Assembly: GCF_004366735.1 (NCBI RefSeq)
Contig: NZ_SOQX01000002.1
Coordinates: 1-64,000, forward strand
Reading direction: 5' to 3'
DNA: 64,000 nucleotides
Origin: Thiohalophilus thiocyanatoxydans
GTDB lineage: Bacteria; Pseudomonadota; Gammaproteobacteria; UBA6429; Thiohalophilaceae
Part shown: positions 47,182 through 59,707 of the stretch, one piece after another
How the letters are laid out: every line of letters starts with the position of its first letter
Numbering within the stretch: the first letter of the stretch is position 1
Made by a program: the position numbers and the translations under genes
Notes under the pieces: model-generated
What the model was told of the DNA's origin: nothing
What the model saw: only the letters and a program-made list of their open reading frames with translations
The model's database searches: none

Positions 47182-47274
47182 GGAGAGATGGCCGAGTGGC
47201 TGAAGGCGCTCCCCTGCTAAGGGAGTATGGGGTTAATAGCTCCATCGAGGGTTCGAATCCCTCTCTCTCCGCCA
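47182..47274 (+). tRNA. tRNA-Ser(GCT)
   Basis: A 93-nt class II tRNA with encoded CCA. The acceptor GGAGAGA pairs with TCTCTCC, the anticodon stem CTCCC/GGGAG encloses loop CTGCTAA (anticodon GCT at 47216-47218), a long variable arm follows, and the T-arm has GGTTCGAATCC. The last 14 nt (47261-47274) form the left attachment repeat of the adjacent genomic island. Confidence 0.97.
47261..47274 (+). other. attL: tRNA-Ser 3' end of the genomic island
   Basis: CTCTCTCTCCGCCA, the end of tRNA-Ser, is repeated exactly at 59694-59707. The two copies bound a 12.4-kb segment with an integrase gene, the expected signature of integration into a tRNA 3' end. Confidence 0.85.
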
Positions 47275-47537
47275 ATTTATAATTATAATCCTATAAAAAA
47301 CAATAACTTAATATTGCATTCATACGCATAGTCCCCCATTTGGCCCCCTTTTGTAGCCGTAGCAGTTCCTTCGGGTTACTGTGATCATAGTTTTCTATAA
47401 TTTCAAAAATATCTGGTTGCTGAGAACCAATCGTTATCCGCAAATCAAATCGCACTGATAGAAAGCCTCTAGCCTTGAGCTCTAGTGTTTAGAGGCCTGA
47501 GGCTATCTTCCTAAAATAGTGAATCAGGTGGAATCGG

Positions 47538-48287
47538 ATGCCATGTAGCAAATGCGGTGAAAAAAACACCATTCGAGCACATTTAATTCCTCAAGTGTTT
47601 TGTAAAGAAGTGCAGACTGGGAAAAGCCATGCTACAGCGGTTAAGACAGATGGATCTTTTCATCCTACTCAATCAGGCACATTCGATAAAAACATACTAT
47701 GTGCAACCTGCGATGGGGAGTTGGGTAGACTGGAAGAATATGCCGCTATTGTGTTTGCTAATATAAGAAAAGGCTCAATTAATAGAGGATTTGGCATAAA
47801 AGAATGTCACGGTATCGACAAAGATAAAATTTTAAGATTCTGTGCAGGAATTCTCTGGAAATACAGTATTACCTCTGAGGAATATGGAAAAATTGATCTT
47901 TACAGCTATCAAGATGAAATTAAGAAAATTGCATTCGGTGAAATAGAAATTCCCTCATGGTTTGATGTCGCTTTAGTGCGATTGCTGATCCATAAGCAAG
48001 ATGATGAGGTTTTTGCATACCGAGCACCTTTGAATTTAAAGAAACAAAATGTCAGGTTGTATAATTTCATGCTGGGCGGCATGGTTTGTTTGGTTAAAGC
48101 CAATAAGAAAAAAATGAATTTTGGTGATGAGCTATCAAAAATTTTGTTAAACCAGGAAGGCGAATTGAGATATTTGCTGGCGCCAGCTGAGGTTTCCGAA
48201 GAGTATAGGCTATCTAAACAACTAGCTAATGAATCATCTAGATTGTCTGCGTTCTTGGATAAACAGGATACAACCATAAACCGATAA
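47538..48287 (+). CDS. HNH-like treble-clef protein
   Basis: A 249-residue protein. The N-terminus has a zinc-knuckle pattern, C3-x2-C6 (MPCSKCGEKN), then AHLIP with His15 and C55-x2-C58 in NILCATCDGELGRLEEY. This spacing is that of HNH/treble-clef nucleases, whose catalytic His lies in an AHxxP segment. The remaining 180 residues are helical and match no family I know. The gene is AT-rich and lies 29 bp before the nuclease gene, so they are probably one operon. Catalytic activity is inference. Confidence 0.55.
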   Translation: MPCSKCGEKNTIRAHLIPQVFCKEVQTGKSHATAVKTDGSFHPTQSGTFDKNILCATCDGELGRLEEYAAIVFANIRKGSINRGFGIKECHGIDKDKILRFCAGILWKYSITSEEYGKIDLYSYQDEIKKIAFGEIEIPSWFDVALVRLLIHKQDDEVFAYRAPLNLKKQNVRLYNFMLGGMVCLVKANKKKMNFGDELSKILLNQEGELRYLLAPAEVSEEYRLSKQLANESSRLSAFLDKQDTTINR

Positions 48288-48316
48288 CGATCTGCTAGTT
48301 TTCGAGGGAGATGGGG

Positions 48317-49273
48317 ATGAGTTTTACATTTACAGATTACGCTGTAGAAGTTCTGGTGGATGCAGACAAGCCGCTAACCTATCAGGAAATATGGGAAATT
48401 GGTAAGAGTAAGGGTTTGGATCAACGGTTGAACACTACAGGTAAAACCCCATGGCAAACACTTGGTGCAAGATTGTTTGTGGAAGTAAGGGATAATCCTA
48501 GAACTGAATTTATTAAAATTGGAAGCAGACCCGCCAGATTTTTTCTTAAGTCAAGAGCTAGCCAGTTGCCAGATGACATAATAGAAAAAATCGAAGTATC
48601 AGAAAGAAAAGAAAAAGAGCCTAAATCTAAATATACCGAAAGAGATCTCCATCCGCTGGTTAGTTATTTTGCATATACGAACCCCACATTTAGTCGGGGG
48701 AAAAGCATACTTACCAAAACTATATTTCATGAGAAATCTAAGAAGCATGGATATAGTGAGTGGAGCCATCCGGATCTCGTGGGTTTTCATCTTCCCTTGG
48801 AAGACTGGAATCCCGATCTAATAGAGTTCAATCGTATATCAGATAACAATGCATTAAAGCTGTTCTCTTTTGAGCTAAAAAAATCGATAACTAAAGGTAA
48901 TTACAGAGAAGCTTTTTTTCAGGCTGTTTCCAATTCGTCGTGGGCAAATGAAGGGTATCTGATTGCTGCAGAAATAAAACAAGATGATGAATTGCTCTCA
49001 GAGCTTGAGCGGTTATCTATGTCATTCGGTATTGGTGTGATTCACCTTGATCTTAATGATATTGATTCATCGGGAATTCTCTATCATGCCAAATATAGGC
49101 CTCAGTTGGATTGGGAAACGATGAATAAATTGTCTGAGCAAAATGATGACTTCAGGCAATTTATCAAGGATGTCAAGATTGATTATGATTCGAAACGAAT
49201 ACATAAGTCTGAATACGACGATGTGATTGAGGACCCTGAGTCTTATATAAATAAAATCAAAGGGGATGTTTGA
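48317..49273 (+). CDS. HARE-HTH domain PD-(D/E)XK nuclease
   Basis: A 318-residue protein. Residues 1-80 match the HARE-HTH winged-helix pattern: FTFTDYAVEVLVDADKPLTY, then GKTPWQTLGARLFVEVR and a closing FFLK. HARE-HTH domains have been proposed to recognise modified DNA. The C-terminal part has a nuclease-like core: Asp153 in SHPDLVGFH, then Glu186 and Lys188 in FSFELKKS (D-E-x-K), followed by a Gln-containing helix REAFFQAVS. The ATG at 48317 has GGGAG 6 nt upstream and is preferred over 48311. Likely a defence nuclease. Confidence 0.65.
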   Translation: MSFTFTDYAVEVLVDADKPLTYQEIWEIGKSKGLDQRLNTTGKTPWQTLGARLFVEVRDNPRTEFIKIGSRPARFFLKSRASQLPDDIIEKIEVSERKEKEPKSKYTERDLHPLVSYFAYTNPTFSRGKSILTKTIFHEKSKKHGYSEWSHPDLVGFHLPLEDWNPDLIEFNRISDNNALKLFSFELKKSITKGNYREAFFQAVSNSSWANEGYLIAAEIKQDDELLSELERLSMSFGIGVIHLDLNDIDSSGILYHAKYRPQLDWETMNKLSEQNDDFRQFIKDVKIDYDSKRIHKSEYDDVIEDPESYINKIKGDV

Positions 49274-52909: not shown

Positions 52910-54391
52910 ATGTTTGAGCAAACCTTCAAAAATATCGATGACGTGCTGTGGAAAGAGGCCGGCTGCGCGACGGAGCTGGACTATACCGAGCAGACTTCCT
53001 GGATGCTGTTTCTCAAGTACCTGGATGACCTGGAGCAGGAGCGGGCCATGGAGGCCGAGCTGCGAGGCAAGTCCTACGATTTCATCATTGACGAGGACTA
53101 CCGCTGGTCGAAGTGGGCGGCGCCGAAGAAGGCCGACGGCTCATTTGACCACGACAACGCCGAGACCGGCGAAGATCTCATCCTCTTCGTAAACACCAAG
53201 CTGTTTCCCTACCTGCAGGGCTTTCGCGAGCGCGCCTCCGGGCCGGATACCATCGAGTACAAGATCGGTGAGATCTTCGGCGAGATCCGTAACAAGTTCC
53301 AGAGTGGCTACAGCCTGCGTGAAGCGCTGGAGCTGATCGATAGCCTGAGCTTCCGCTCGCAGAAGGAAAAGCACGAGCTCTCACACCTGTACGAGGCCAA
53401 GATCCGCAACATGGGCAACGCCGGGCGTAACGGCGGCGAATACTACACCCCGCGCCCGCTGATCCGCGCGATGATAAAAGTCACCAAACCGAAGATCGGC
53501 GAGCGTATCTACGACGCGGCCGCCGGCTCGGCCGGCTTTATGTGCGAGGCTCACGACTACCTACGCTACGGGCCGGATGGTCCTGACGGTAACAAACCAC
53601 CCAAGCTGTCCACAAAAGACCTGGAGACACTGCAGACCCGCACCTTCTACGCCAAGGAGAAGAAAAGCCTGCCCTATGTCATCGGGATCATGAATATGAT
53701 CCTGCATGGCATCGAGACGCCCAACATCCAGCACACCAACAGCCTGACCGAGAACCTCAGCGACATCCAGGAAAAGGACCGCTTCGACGTGATCCTTGCC
53801 AATCCACCCTTCGGCGGCAAGGAGCGCAAGGAGATCCAGCAGAACTTCCCCATCAAGACCGGCGAGACGGCCTTTCTGTTCCTGCAACACTTCATCAAGT
53901 ATCTCAAGGCCGGCGGCCGGGCGGCCATCGTTATCAAGAACACCTTTCTATCCAACTCCGACAACGCCTCCCGCGCCCTGCGCAAAGAGCTGCTGGAGAA
54001 CTGCAACCTGCACACCATCCTCGACTGCCCCGGCGGGACGTTCCTTGGCGCTGGTGTAAAGACTGTAGTGCTGTTCTTCGAGAAAGGCGCGCCGACACAA
54101 AATATCTGGTACTACCACCTCGACCCTGGCCGCAGCCTGGGCAAAACCAATCCGCTCAACGACGACGACTTGAAGGAATTCGTCGAACTGCAGGCCAGCT
54201 TTGCCGACTCGGATGAATCCTGGACGGTAAATATTGAAGACATTGATCAGGAAACCTGGGATCTGTCGGTCAAGAACCCCAACAAGGCCGAGGAAGATCC
54301 CCTGCGCGATCCCGAGGTCATCATCAACGAGATCGAAACCCTAGACAGGGAGAGCGAGGAAATCCTGGAAGGGATACGGGGGATGTTATGA
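52910..54391 (+). CDS. hsdM: Type I restriction-modification methyltransferase HsdM
   Basis: A 493-residue N6-adenine methyltransferase. The N-terminal HsdM domain starts MFEQTFKNIDDVLWKEAGCA. The SAM-binding motif is YDAAAGSAGFM, and the catalytic motif IV is NPPFGG at residues 298-303. The stop overlaps the hsdS start by 4 bp (ATGA). GC content is high, unlike the AT-rich left part of the island. Confidence 0.95.
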   Translation: MFEQTFKNIDDVLWKEAGCATELDYTEQTSWMLFLKYLDDLEQERAMEAELRGKSYDFIIDEDYRWSKWAAPKKADGSFDHDNAETGEDLILFVNTKLFPYLQGFRERASGPDTIEYKIGEIFGEIRNKFQSGYSLREALELIDSLSFRSQKEKHELSHLYEAKIRNMGNAGRNGGEYYTPRPLIRAMIKVTKPKIGERIYDAAAGSAGFMCEAHDYLRYGPDGPDGNKPPKLSTKDLETLQTRTFYAKEKKSLPYVIGIMNMILHGIETPNIQHTNSLTENLSDIQEKDRFDVILANPPFGGKERKEIQQNFPIKTGETAFLFLQHFIKYLKAGGRAAIVIKNTFLSNSDNASRALRKELLENCNLHTILDCPGGTFLGAGVKTVVLFFEKGAPTQNIWYYHLDPGRSLGKTNPLNDDDLKEFVELQASFADSDESWTVNIEDIDQETWDLSVKNPNKAEEDPLRDPEVIINEIETLDRESEEILEGIRGML

Positions 54392-55611
54392 CGTCAACTT
54401 GGAATACGAAACCTTTGAAAGAGGTCTCCGGCTTTCAAGGTGGATCACAGCCACCGAAATCGCAATTTGTATCTGTACCTCAGGAAGGATATGTGAGGCT
54501 TTTACAAATAAGAGATTTCAAGAGTGATGACAAAGCAGTTTATATTCCTGTCACGAAGAAAATTCGCACCTGTTCCGAAGATGATATTTTGATTGGAAGG
54601 TACGGCGCCTCCGTAGGCCAAATTCATAGAGGCAAGTCGGGTGCATATAATGTTGCACTTATTAAAACGATACCTGACGATGAAGTGATTGACAGAAACT
54701 ATTTTTATTACTTTCTAAATTCCGCTCTTTTCCAACGGCCATTAATGAATATCGCCGCAAGATCAGCGCAAGCTGGATTCAGCAAAGAAGACATAGCTAA
54801 CTTTCCGGTGCCTGTACCGCCGCTTCTCGAACAAAAACGCATCGTCGCCATTCTCGATGAGGCCTTCGCGGGGACTGAAGCGGCCATAGCCAATACCGAA
54901 AAGAACCTCGCCAATGCCCGTGAATTGTTTGACAGTTACCTGAATGCGATCTTCAGTCAAGATGCCAGAAAATGGCACAAAGATACCTTAGATAACGTTG
55001 TTGATGAAACATGCTCACTTTCTTATGGAATCGTTCAGCCAGGGAAAGAATTTCCAAATGGACTGCCCGTAGTTCGCCCAACCGATTTAACAAAAAAAGT
55101 CATTACGCTAGATAATTTAAAACATATCAATCCAGATCTAGCTAAGTCATATAAAAGGACTACGTTGATAGGAAATGATCTGCTTCTCTGTGTGCGAGGG
55201 AGCACGGGCGTTGTTTCTATTGCGGCTAGTGAGTTAGCGGGAGCGAATGTAACTAGAGGCATTGTTCCAATTCGATTTAATTCTTCTGTTCTCACTCAAG
55301 AATTCGGATATTACTTACTGAAGTCACCCAGTGTACAAGAACAGATTAAGGAGAAAACATATGGAGCTGCGTTAATGCAAATTAACATTCGCGACATGAA
55401 GAAATTAAAACTATCCATTCCGCCATTAAATAAACAAACAGACTTGTCGAGCATGCTGGATGACCTCAGTTTTGAGACGCGACGGCTTGAATCTATCTAC
55501 CAACAGAAACTAACTGCTCTCGCCGAACTCAAACAGTCCCTGCTGCAAAAGGCCTTCACCGGCGAGCTGACAGCCGAGATGCACAAAGAGGCTGAAGAGG
55601 CGGTGGCATGA
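54388..55611 (+). CDS. hsdS: Type I restriction-modification specificity subunit HsdS
   Basis: A 407-residue protein with two target-recognition domains, each followed by a conserved helical region. The first ends PLLEQKRIVAILDEAFAG, the second PPLNKQTDLSSMLDDLS. Both recognition domains are AT-rich while the helical regions are GC-richer, the usual sign of domain exchange. HsdS sets the DNA sequence for the complex. It overlaps hsdM and hsdR by 4 bp at each end. Confidence 0.93.
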   Translation: MTSTWNTKPLKEVSGFQGGSQPPKSQFVSVPQEGYVRLLQIRDFKSDDKAVYIPVTKKIRTCSEDDILIGRYGASVGQIHRGKSGAYNVALIKTIPDDEVIDRNYFYYFLNSALFQRPLMNIAARSAQAGFSKEDIANFPVPVPPLLEQKRIVAILDEAFAGTEAAIANTEKNLANARELFDSYLNAIFSQDARKWHKDTLDNVVDETCSLSYGIVQPGKEFPNGLPVVRPTDLTKKVITLDNLKHINPDLAKSYKRTTLIGNDLLLCVRGSTGVVSIAASELAGANVTRGIVPIRFNSSVLTQEFGYYLLKSPSVQEQIKEKTYGAALMQINIRDMKKLKLSIPPLNKQTDLSSMLDDLSFETRRLESIYQQKLTALAELKQSLLQKAFTGELTAEMHKEAEEAVA

Positions 55612-58001
55612 ACGAAGCCGAGACCCGTGCCGAACTGATCGACCCGGCCCTGAAGGAGGCTGGCTGGGGCGTGGTGGACGGCAGCCGGGTACGGCGCGAG
55701 GTGATCGCGCCGGGGCGGCTGATCGGCGGCGGCCGGCGCGGCAAGCAGGACATTGCCGACTATGTGTTGATGTATCGCGGCCAGAAGCTCGCGGTGATCG
55801 AGGCCAAGAAACGCACCTCACCGGACACCGAAGGATTAGGCCAGGCCAAGCGCTATGCCGAACGCTTGCAGGCCCGCTTTGCCTTCTCCACCAACGGGGT
55901 CGGTATCTACCGGGTGGATATGCACACCGGCGAGGAAGGCTATGCGAAAGCCTTTCCGTCACCGGATGCGCTCTGGCATGAAGCCTTTGCCGAGCGGAAT
56001 CTCTGGCGCGAACGCTTCGGTGCGGTGCCTTTCGAGGACAAGGGCGGCTTCTGGCAGGCACGCTACTATCAGCACAACGCCATCAACAAGGCTCTGGAGG
56101 CCATCGCCGAGGGGCGTGACCGCATTCTGCTGACCCTGGCCACCGGCACAGGCAAGACGGCCATCGCCTTTCAGATTGCCTGGAAGCTGTTCCATGCCCG
56201 CTGGAGCCTGGCGGCGCGGGCGAGTGGCGAGCCAGGACGCCAGCCGCGCATCCTGTTCTTGGCCGACCGCAACATCCTCGCCAACCAGGCCTTTAACGAT
56301 TTCTCCGCCTTCCCCGATGACGCGCTAGTGCGCATCGACCCGGAGACCATCCGCAAGAAGGGCCGGGTGCCAAAAAACGGCAGCATCTTCTTCACCATCT
56401 TCCAGACCTTCATGACCGGGCGCAATGCCGAGGGCAACCCGCAATACAACTTCTACGATTACCCGGCAGACTTTTTCGATTTCATCATCATCGACGAGTG
56501 CCACCGGGGCGGGGCCAACGACGAGAGCAACTGGCGCCAGATCATGGAGCATTTCAGCCCGGCCGTGCAGCTTGGCCTGACCGCCACGCCCAAACGCACC
56601 CACAACACTGACACCTATGCCTACTTCGGCGACCCGGTGTATATCTATTCCCTCAAGGAGGGCATCAACGACGGCTACCTAACCCCGTTCAAGGTACGGC
56701 AGATCGCCACGACTCTGGATGATTACGTCTTCACCTCGGACGATCAGGTCATCGAGGGCGAGATCGAAGAGGGCCGGCGCTACACCGAGGAAGACTTCAA
56801 CCGGGTTATCGAAATTCGTGAGCGCGAGCAGTACCGCGTGAAGCTGTTCATGGAGAGCATCGACCCGCGCGAGAAGACCCTGGTATTCTGCGCCACCCAG
56901 GAACATGCCCTGGCGGTACGCGATCTCATCAACCAGATGAAGACCATCAAGGATCCGCACTACTGCGAGCGCGTCACGGCCAATGACGGCGCCGAGGGCG
57001 AGCGCTGGCTGCGGGCCTTCCAGGATAACGAGAAAACCATTCCAACAATTCTCACGACCTCTCAGAAGCTCTCCACCGGCGTGGATGCGCGCAACGTGCG
57101 CCACATTGTGCTGATGCGGCCGGTGAACTCCATGATCGAGTTCAAGCAGATCATCGGCCGCGGCACGCGCCTGTTCGACGGCAAGGACTATTTCACCATT
57201 CATGACTTCGTGAAGGCCTACGAGCATTTCAACGACGAGGAATGGGACGGCGAGCCGCTGGCCCCGGATCCCTGCCCGCGCTGCGGTAACGTGCCCTGTA
57301 CCTGCGTGATCGAACCGCCCAGGCCCTGCGAGGTTTGCGGACAGAGCCCCTGTGTCTGTCCCAAAGAACCGCCCGAGGAATGCCCTGTATGCGGCGAATC
57401 GCCCTGTGTCTGCGACAAGCAACGCAAGGTGAAGGTAAAACTGGCCGACGGCAAGGAACGCACCCTGCAGCACATGAGCGCGACCACCTTCTGGAGCCCC
57501 GACGGCAAGCCGATCTCCGCCGCTGAATTCGTGCAACGGCTCTTCGGCGACCTGCCCGAGCTGTTCAAGAACGAGGACGAGCTGCGCCAGTTGTGGAGCC
57601 GACCGGATACCCGCAAGGCCCTGCTGAACGGCCTGGAGGAAAAAGGCTACGGCGTCGAGCAGCTACGTGAAATCGGCAAGATGATCGAAGCCGAGAACAG
57701 CGACCTGTACGACGTGCTGGCGTATATCGCCTACGCACAACCGCCAGTGACCCGAGCCGAGCGGGTGGAGTCACACAAGGAGCTCATTTTCTCCCGCTAT
57801 GACTACCGTCAGAAAGAGTTCCTGGAATTCGTGCTGAATCATTATATTGAACGCGGCGTCGGCGAGCTGGATACCGACAAGCTCCCCGTGCTGATCGAAC
57901 TCAAATACTACAGTGTCGGTGACGCCATCGCCGAGCTGGGCAACGTCAGCAATATCCGGCAGGTGTTTGTTGAGTTTCAATCATATCTTTATGAGCCTTG
58001 A
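55608..58001 (+). CDS. hsdR: Type I restriction enzyme HsdR with Cys-rich insertion
   Basis: A 797-residue translocating endonuclease. The N-terminal nuclease has KQDIADYVLMYRGQKLAVIE then AKK. Walker A is ATGTGKT near 179-185, the DEAD-type motif is DECHRGG near 296. Residues 556-602 hold three CxxCGxxPCxC repeats with an 18-residue period (starts 556, 574, 592), which looks like a zinc-binding insertion unusual for HsdR. The remainder, with LNHYIERGVGELDTDKLP, is intact. Frame and length suggest a functional enzyme. Confidence 0.93.
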   Translation: MNEAETRAELIDPALKEAGWGVVDGSRVRREVIAPGRLIGGGRRGKQDIADYVLMYRGQKLAVIEAKKRTSPDTEGLGQAKRYAERLQARFAFSTNGVGIYRVDMHTGEEGYAKAFPSPDALWHEAFAERNLWRERFGAVPFEDKGGFWQARYYQHNAINKALEAIAEGRDRILLTLATGTGKTAIAFQIAWKLFHARWSLAARASGEPGRQPRILFLADRNILANQAFNDFSAFPDDALVRIDPETIRKKGRVPKNGSIFFTIFQTFMTGRNAEGNPQYNFYDYPADFFDFIIIDECHRGGANDESNWRQIMEHFSPAVQLGLTATPKRTHNTDTYAYFGDPVYIYSLKEGINDGYLTPFKVRQIATTLDDYVFTSDDQVIEGEIEEGRRYTEEDFNRVIEIREREQYRVKLFMESIDPREKTLVFCATQEHALAVRDLINQMKTIKDPHYCERVTANDGAEGERWLRAFQDNEKTIPTILTTSQKLSTGVDARNVRHIVLMRPVNSMIEFKQIIGRGTRLFDGKDYFTIHDFVKAYEHFNDEEWDGEPLAPDPCPRCGNVPCTCVIEPPRPCEVCGQSPCVCPKEPPEECPVCGESPCVCDKQRKVKVKLADGKERTLQHMSATTFWSPDGKPISAAEFVQRLFGDLPELFKNEDELRQLWSRPDTRKALLNGLEEKGYGVEQLREIGKMIEAENSDLYDVLAYIAYAQPPVTRAERVESHKELIFSRYDYRQKEFLEFVLNHYIERGVGELDTDKLPVLIELKYYSVGDAIAELGNVSNIRQVFVEFQSYLYEP

Positions 58002-58314: not shown

Positions 58315-59538
58315 TCAGGAAGTCCTGGCTTGTTTGTTTATTGGAATTATGTCTGCCTGCTGTGAGGTTACATAATTCGCCCATTCCTGCATCATCTTCC
58401 GGCGTTTGGCAAACAGGTCGCCACGTCGATAGGCGGCCTCGACTTTATTCTCGATAACATGTGCGAGAGCCATTTCCGCCACATCGCGCGGAAAGCTTGA
58501 TACCTCGCCGGACCAGTCCCGGAAACTGGACCGAAAACCGTGCGGTACATAGTCGCCACGTGCGCCATTGATTCCATATCCCATCCCGCGCATTAGTTGT
58601 AGTAGCGACATGTTGGACAGGGGGCGCCCATGTTGGCTCCCCGGGAAGACATAGGGATTGCCTTCAATGCGGGGCAGAGCGCTGAGAATTTCGATGACCG
58701 CATCTGAGAGCGGGACTCTGTGCTCCCGTCGGGCCTTCATCCTGGCAGCAGGTATAGTCCAGACGGCCCCTTCCAGGTCGATTTCGTCCCAATTGGCGTT
58801 CAATACCTCGTTGGTGCGCGTGGCAGTCAGGATGAGGAACTGTAGCGCCATAGCCGATACGTTCTCCTTCTGTGACAGCTCCGCCATGAACGCGGGAACT
58901 TCGGCATGCGGCATAGCAGGGTGGTGATTGACTTCTCTCACCCTCGAGGGCTTCGGCAACAGCTTGTTCAGGTGGCCGCGCCAGCGGGCGGGATTCAGTG
59001 AATCCCGGTACTTGTGGGCAGCTGCATAGTCCAGGACGTTTTCCATGCGACCCTGAACTCGTTTGGCGGTTTCTGTCTTGTTCGTCCAGATCGGGGAAAG
59101 AATCGCCAGAATATCCTCGGTGGTGATGGCATCCACCGGCTTTGACCCTATAACGGGCCGGACATAGGTTTGGAGAGTACTGACCCACTGCCGGGCATGC
59201 TTGGCATTCTTCCAGCCACGCCTGTGGGCCCGGATGTACCGTGCCGCACAGGTGGTAAAGGTGGGCACGGTCTCTTGCTCGATTCTGCGGACCTCGATGG
59301 GATCGATCCCCGAAGAAGCCTGCAAGCGGCATTCAGAAGCCTTGAGGCGAGCATCAGCGAGGGAAACATCCGGGTAGCTACCCAGGCCCATCTCGCGACG
59401 CCTGCCGTTGAGGGTGAACCGCAGAACCCACTTCTTGGCGCCTGACTTCGATACCACCAGACGCAGACCGCCGCCGTCCTCGTATTTGCCTGGGCCGGCG
59501 GTTGCGACCTTGCGAGGGGTTAGTTTGTGAATGGCCAT
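58315..59538 (-). CDS. P4-type tyrosine integrase
   Basis: A 407-residue integrase. The N-terminal DUF4102 domain has KYEDGGGLRLVVSKSGAKKW and MGLGSYPDVSLADAR. The catalytic domain has the Arg in TATRTNEVLNANW, His-x-x-Arg in PHGFRSSFRDW, and the final His/Tyr in MALAHVIENKVEAAYRRGDL. It should catalyse integration at the tRNA-Ser 3' end. Its start lies 155 bp from the right att repeat. Confidence 0.95.
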   Translation of the reverse strand: MAIHKLTPRKVATAGPGKYEDGGGLRLVVSKSGAKKWVLRFTLNGRRREMGLGSYPDVSLADARLKASECRLQASSGIDPIEVRRIEQETVPTFTTCAARYIRAHRRGWKNAKHARQWVSTLQTYVRPVIGSKPVDAITTEDILAILSPIWTNKTETAKRVQGRMENVLDYAAAHKYRDSLNPARWRGHLNKLLPKPSRVREVNHHPAMPHAEVPAFMAELSQKENVSAMALQFLILTATRTNEVLNANWDEIDLEGAVWTIPAARMKARREHRVPLSDAVIEILSALPRIEGNPYVFPGSQHGRPLSNMSLLQLMRGMGYGINGARGDYVPHGFRSSFRDWSGEVSSFPRDVAEMALAHVIENKVEAAYRRGDLFAKRRKMMQEWANYVTSQQADIIPINKQARTS

Positions 59539-59693: not shown

Positions 59694-59707
59694 CTCTCTC
59701 TCCGCCA
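59694..59707 (+). other. attR: copy of the tRNA-Ser 3' end
   Basis: CTCTCTCTCCGCCA is identical to the last 14 nt of tRNA-Ser. The bases before it differ, so only the tail of the tRNA is duplicated. It marks the right end of the island. Confidence 0.85.

Follow-up and report, generated by a model that had tools for sequence, protein, structure and literature searches.

An HrgA-family candidate nuclease and an HNH-like protein in a tRNA-Ser island of Thiohalophilus thiocyanatoxydans: neighbours rather than a two-gene system?

Introduction

When two short AT-rich genes lie next to each other at the edge of a mobile island, do they form one system, or are they two passengers that share a site? 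The question is raised by two genes, here called A and B, in a 64,000-nucleotide stretch of Thiohalophilus thiocyanatoxydans DNA, referred to below as the window. A first-pass annotation had read them as a modification-dependent restriction module with two nucleases, in which one protein may sense and the other cut. Here, we consider what each protein resembles, where its relatives are found, and how often the two families meet.

Results and discussion

A tRNA-Ser island with two AT-rich genes at its end

Both genes lie just inside the tRNA end of an island that contains a tyrosine integrase and a type I restriction-modification (R-M) system (52910-58001; Table 1). With GC contents of 37% for A and 38% for B against 58% for the window, and with 14-bp att repeats and an integrase in place, the initial picture of two AT-rich reading frames 29 bp apart in a tRNA-Ser island holds, and the restriction-like setting is likewise supported. 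The exact gap depends on where B starts: from the first ATG (48311), it is 23 bp and the motif residues of B are D155, E188 and K190, the numbering used below; from the second ATG (48317), at which the B reading frame of another genome of the same genus (G038) begins, it is 29 bp and the same residues become D153, E186 and K188. In this second numbering, the residues originally cited for B are all present, as are C3, C6, H15 (in AHLIP), C55 and C58 of A, which also carries the acidic residues D50 and D59.

Table 1. Positions of the island features within the window.
Feature	Position	Strand	Basis
tRNA-Ser (GCT), island insertion site	47182..47274	+	ARAGORN
attL, 14 bp, equal to the tRNA-Ser 3' end, CTCTCTCTCCGCCA	47261..47274	+	exact direct repeat
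Gene A, 249 aa, HNH-like N terminus, C-terminal region without known domain	47538..48287	+	
Gene B, HrgA-family protein; likely true start 48317 (second ATG)	48311..49273	+	
B residues 1-85, HARE-HTH / winged-helix domain	48311..48565	+	PF05066, E 1.8e-12; winged-helix matches, best Z 8.8
B residues ~106-304, PD-(D/E)XK-type domain (likely), D155, E188, K190, Q204	48626..49222	+	motif kept 39/39; PaqCI, Z 8.3 over 147 residues
HsdM, type I R-M in the A/B island	52910..54391	+	
HsdS, type I R-M in the A/B island	54388..55611	+	
HsdR, EcoAI/FtnUII type	55608..58001	+	NCBIfam NF046051, E 2.4e-245
Tyrosine integrase of the island	58315..59538	-	
attR, 14 bp, second copy of CTCTCTCTCCGCCA, beside the integrase	59694..59707	+	exact direct repeat

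Gene B, an HrgA-family protein with a constant core

What kind of protein is B? Its HARE-HTH match scores 47.9 bits against a Pfam cut-off of 25.9, and Pfam finds no other domain above cut-off in the protein; PADLOC and NCBIfam gave nothing useful for either gene. Over 98% of its length, B and HrgA of Helicobacter sp. NHP21005 are 31.8% identical (E 1e-35), and B shares the D-ExK-Q core, at about 27-37% identity, with plasmid-record proteins named HrgA. Judged by its sequence, B is a member of the HrgA family. When 18 close HrgA proteins are aligned with 21 further ones, down to 26% identity (39 rows, some of them near-duplicates), D155, E188, K190, F203, Q204, N208 and W211 are kept in every row, whereas just two of the 21 further proteins retain all four HARE residues W28, G44, P47 and W48. 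Ten further members were scanned with Pfam, and HARE-HTH scored above cut-off in one, from a Leptospira plasmid, and below it in another; B differs from the further members by its clear HARE-HTH domain. The nuclease-type core of the family is therefore constant and its N terminus variable.

In an AlphaFold2 model of B built on an 18-row alignment (pLDDT 80, pTM 0.60), D155 lies in strand 154-160, strand 183-193 carries both E188 and K190, and the helix after it carries Q204; residues 145-152 and 163-179 fall below pLDDT 50. With a structure aligner, the N-terminal part matches winged helices, while the C-terminal part is closest to the restriction enzyme PaqCI, with an rmsd of 3.7 at a Z score of 8.3, a level (near 8) that can also reflect a common arrangement. 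Behind PaqCI follow 3dnx, a structure whose function is not known (Z 7.7), EndoMS (7.5) and AspBHI (7.2). Foldseek returned no PDB match for B at E<=0.001 and only weak ones in BFVD, of which the two under E 0.001 are both uncharacterised phage proteins by name, and a profile search of solved structures with A and B gave nothing useful. From motif and topology together, the PD-(D/E)XK assignment of B is likely, and the earlier description of B as a HARE-HTH and PD-(D/E)XK-type protein is supported by Pfam, the conserved motif and the structural matches.

We consider B probably a nuclease, whose D-ExK-Q domain would cut DNA and whose HARE-HTH winged helix is predicted to bind, and probably to read, it. 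The winged-helix N terminus, and the name HTH domain-containing protein used in two of the plasmid records examined, might instead suggest a transcription regulator; this is very improbable, since the most conserved part of the protein is the D-ExK-Q core and not the HTH. The combination of a reader with a nuclease domain recalls AspBHI and other type IV enzymes, to which modification dependence would be a further, putative likeness; the AspBHI reader, which is not known to be a winged helix, differs from the N terminus of B. Fusions of HARE-HTH with restriction endonucleases, in the same domain order as in B, were reportedly predicted by Aravind and co-workers. Excerpts of PMC10853773 place such fusions in phosphorothioate-linked neighbourhoods and propose that they discriminate modifications; in excerpts of PMC11037411 and PMC10853773, HARE-HTH is a proposed sensor of modified bases, by one account of cytosine rather than adenine.

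Close relatives of B look solo

A contig scan found close relatives of B, with about 45-67% identity in the long matches, at 26 loci that span Ignavibacteria, spirochaetes, Campylobacterota, Bacteroidota, Chloroflexi, Deltaproteobacteria and others. Within the window's own phylum, the B profile matched 19 of 398 sampled genomes, five of them weakly or partially, and the window's own genome is the only one of the sample with a gene of the close kind (5.7e-168; next 5.4e-51). Such a distribution is what transfer of the gene from phylum to phylum would leave. At least five of the 26 close relatives are split into two frames (L001, L005, L013, L015, L024), which fits a gene that is frequently lost once it has been transferred.

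Does B travel with a partner? Apart from the duplicate contigs L018/L019, the 161 proteins encoded within 2.5 kb of B at the 26 loci share a single weak pair (L004/L011), and no methylase partner recurs within that distance. Ten of these neighbours were scanned: seven are metabolic or housekeeping proteins (M20 peptidase, arginase, ThiF, NUBPL-type ParA, PLP decarboxylase, seryl-tRNA synthetase, carbonic anhydrase) and three have no match. A later scan covered 91 of 92 neighbour proteins, omitting one long ORF of L001; among the matches listed, nucleotidyltransferase domains occur in at least three, HEPN in at least two and Fic in at least two, and among the best 25 of 121 families, single members match type II methylase, HEC-06, AbiQ and Orf5 models. 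A few neighbours look like mobile or defence cargo, and a partner nearby may exist for some relatives of B; as a group, the close relatives look solo. Because no methylase partner is conserved, B would most likely limit its cutting to DNA with a modification or state that the host's own lacks; granted that B is a nuclease, we hold such type IV-like action at even odds. It is in this conditional sense that we infer cleavage, modified-base sensing and a defence role for B.

But could B work with the type I system of its own island, either as an accessory subunit of HsdMSR or as a conventional sequence-specific nuclease? Further HrgA genes offer some ground for this idea. We examined 13 of 25 plasmid records with B matches (and 4 of 6 with A matches); five of the 13 carry a further HrgA gene, representing three distinct HrgA proteins, by type I R-M genes, and three of these five have the order hsdM-hsdS-hrgA-hsdR, with hrgA between hsdS and hsdR on Proteus and Vibrio plasmids (L134, L150, L151). 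On a Shewanella and another Vibrio plasmid, hrgA adjoins or lies near hsdR. Chromosomal further HrgA genes have an HsdR-like match in 3 of 12 loci, at distances of 69 bp, ~0.8 kb and ~1.9 kb, the last two at ~25% identity. Excerpts of PMC6563999 and PMC4687069 describe hrgA in Helicobacter pylori as replacing the restriction gene beside its methylase. However, B of the window lies 3.6 kb before hsdM with opposite-strand ORFs in between, and seven HsdM/HsdS/HsdR queries gave no match near any of the 26 close loci, which sets the solo-looking close relatives apart from the several further members in or by type I operons. We regard a type I partnership or conventional specificity of B as unlikely.

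Other neighbours were seen at two loci: AAA ATPase and TPR-protein genes lie upstream of hrgA in Shewanella and in Escherichia marmotae (L137, L152), where the E. marmotae hrgA match is unannotated, and the three could be a recurrent set. In the literature, excerpts present HrgA mostly as a Helicobacter pylori typing marker without an assigned physiological role, and an excerpt of PMC6563999 notes no modification gene near hrgA in Acinetobacter baumannii; a literature search, as far as excerpts of the matches listed go, found no functional work on HrgA.

Gene A, an HNH-like protein in varied company

Gene A fits no Pfam, NCBIfam or PADLOC family. By its match (E 2.5e-8), it is a member of the PHROGs family phrog_19960, which 12 of 15 A-family members match and to which no function is attached; PHROGs returned only families without known function for A, and NCBIfam gave nothing useful for the 15 members. 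Relatives with ~18-35% identity occur on plasmids, in genomes, on viral contigs and in phage records. In the window's class, they were found in 3 other genomes among 369 sampled, and in its phylum in 14 others among 398, some over the N-terminal part only. Six scans of viral contigs yielded two loci, one each from two scans and none from the other four, and four Acinetobacter phage records match when one A relative serves as the query.

Is A an HNH nuclease? In an alignment of 15 family members (A5), G47, C55 and C58 are kept in 15/15 rows; C3, C6 and H15 are kept in all 13 rows that contain the N terminus, and in the remaining two rows the Cys-rich segment and HxxP precede the annotated start. 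The first CxxC and HxIP of A align over 21 columns with HNH-type proteins, a segment shared with HNH / His-Me finger nucleases (hhalign probability 73, against 0 to 1.6 for five column shuffles), and the match stops short of the second CxxC. Canonical HNH nucleases usually carry Asn and Asn/His. At positions 50 and 59, which we take to be the equivalents, all 15 rows have Asp or Glu in their place, so that A is no more than a candidate HNH nuclease. Of the earlier HNH assignment, the HNH-like N terminus with its CxxC pairs and H15 stands, whereas the canonical Asn and Asn/His are replaced by acidic residues: as far as the sequence goes, A is an HNH-like protein with putative HNH nuclease activity. 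The Cys pairs suggest zinc binding. A structure model of A, built from three sequences only, reached a pLDDT of 38.5, a level at which it is uninformative about the fold.

We looked closely at 17 A-family loci, the 15 rows of A5 together with L070 and L090, a set that counts the window and G038. At eight of them, the A-family gene has defence-type company on its own strand, no more than about 100 bp away. The neighbour is HrgA in the window and G038, an Mrr_cat protein 1 nt upstream in L033, a TIR protein 7 bp upstream in L040 and an overlapping MmeI-TRD protein in L060; in L034, a 243-aa gene whose function is not known overlaps the A-family gene and follows McrBC-type genes, and in L035 and L036, which are two related pairs, the neighbours are annotated as HEPN proteins, with no HEPN found by Pfam. 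The other nine (L038, L039, L056-L059, L061, L070, L090) have no defence-type neighbour by Pfam or by eye. Seven more distant matches lie outside the 17 (L062-L066, L068, L069), and in one of these, L064, a SEC-C/Mrr-like gene lies 52 bp downstream. The neighbours of A-family genes thus vary by locus, and the genes stand alone or tightly beside differing defence-type genes. With low confidence, A might serve defence genes as an accessory that binds or nicks DNA. A side observation concerns L057:4000-10000, where short ORFs on one strand, the A-family gene among them, follow each other at regular spacing in what resembles a gene-cassette array.

Do A and B form a system?

In G038, A and then B follow the same tRNA, and after them come the same two minus-strand ORFs and hsdMSR. 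As in the window, the two genes lie on the same strand about 30 bp apart, and no terminator-like match was found between A and B. This conserved arrangement fits a two-gene restriction module in which A and B are co-transcribed and one protein senses while the other cuts; pairing with a nuclease would also be in character for A, given that A-family genes elsewhere lie within ~100 bp of other defence-type genes.

The pair, however, was found only in the window's own genome (G000) and G038, two members of one genus, at the same tRNA. Conserved adjacency, whose lack had been named beforehand as refuting the module, is absent: outside the genus, none of 43 B-family loci (five of them weak or partial matches) holds an A-family match, and none of 21 distinct A-family places holds a B-family match. 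The flanks searched extended up to 8 kb at the 26 close B loci and ~1.5 kb at the other 17, with some shortened by contig ends; gene A is in none of the 26, and a wider flank at 12 of the 17, where the contig allowed it, again gave no A. Of the weak or partial loci, L084 is a fragment from the C terminus, and in L085-L088 the match lies mostly in the HARE part; L053/L067 and L089, which had no match, were left out of the count, and L018/L019 look like one contig counted twice. Both families occur in 2 of 398 sampled genomes: in that of the window, and in G597 at ~75 kb from each other. We therefore dropped A-B pairing across genomes as a candidate, ruled out by the absent adjacency in the sampled loci outside the genus, and the proposed two-gene module is not supported.

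The divergence between the window and G038 also bears on the pair. For B, dN/dS is 0.06 at a dS of 0.28 (12 nonsynonymous and 45 synonymous changes); for A, it is 0.34 at a dS of 0.08 (16 nonsynonymous and 12 synonymous changes). These low ratios indicate that both behave as genes, A under less constraint. Synonymous changes number 12/157 sites in A and 45/194 in B (p 7e-5), and the stretch 47200-48099, which starts at the tRNA and covers the first three quarters of A, is almost identical in the two genomes. This near-identity looks like a recent exchange of the island's tRNA end. Such an exchange of A but not of B would show that the genes are separable, and it says nothing on whether they function independently. 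We considered the low synonymous divergence of A as proof that A and B have separate origins and rejected this, because a recent exchange of the island end would explain 47200-48099.

With these points weighed, a two-gene module appears quite unlikely; cooperation confined to this lineage is possible, with linkage as the one argument for it. We favour, at a probability of roughly 0.6, the reading that two independent mobile defence-type genes adjoin each other at the island's tRNA end, B being a stand-alone HrgA-family restriction-like nuclease and A a separate gene. On this reading, A would have joined B in the window's lineage and would not be required by it. B would file as an HrgA-family member and A as a member of a family without known function, and the two do not look like a new two-gene system.

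A broader picture can be drawn, though as a whole we think it rather improbable: HrgA could be a widely transferred stand-alone restriction family that combines a constant D-ExK-Q nuclease with an exchangeable N-terminal reader, which would be HARE in the clade of B and another domain in other clades, and the A family could be a separate one, made up of H-(D/E)-(D/E) zinc proteins that join HrgA, Mrr, McrBC-type, TIR, HEPN and MmeI-type effectors as a common DNA-sensing or DNA-nicking partner. For HrgA, function is directly testable with a single gene, given the conserved nuclease-type core, the HARE reader and a solo distribution across phyla. For the A family, a small protein found beside several kinds of defence-type gene, a survey is worthwhile despite a pairing with HrgA that looks local.

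Other features of the island

When the whole island was used as a query against plasmids, two records were returned, each matching only in HsdR. The second half of the window's HsdR contains three CxxC-rich repeats (PCPRCGNVPCTC-like; 57273-57420), which are also present in G038. No second att end was found in the 17.4 kb of G038 examined, so that the far end of that island would lie beyond this stretch. Between the two genomes, protein identity is 96% for HsdM and 92% for HsdR and only 33% for HsdS (54388-55611 in the window; L037:7382-8629), a case of specificity exchange within one R-M operon. After hsdR, the genes of G038 (L037:11058-17006) differ from those of the window; judged by eye, one of them has a canonical-looking HNH motif and another resembles a CBASS-type nucleotidyltransferase.
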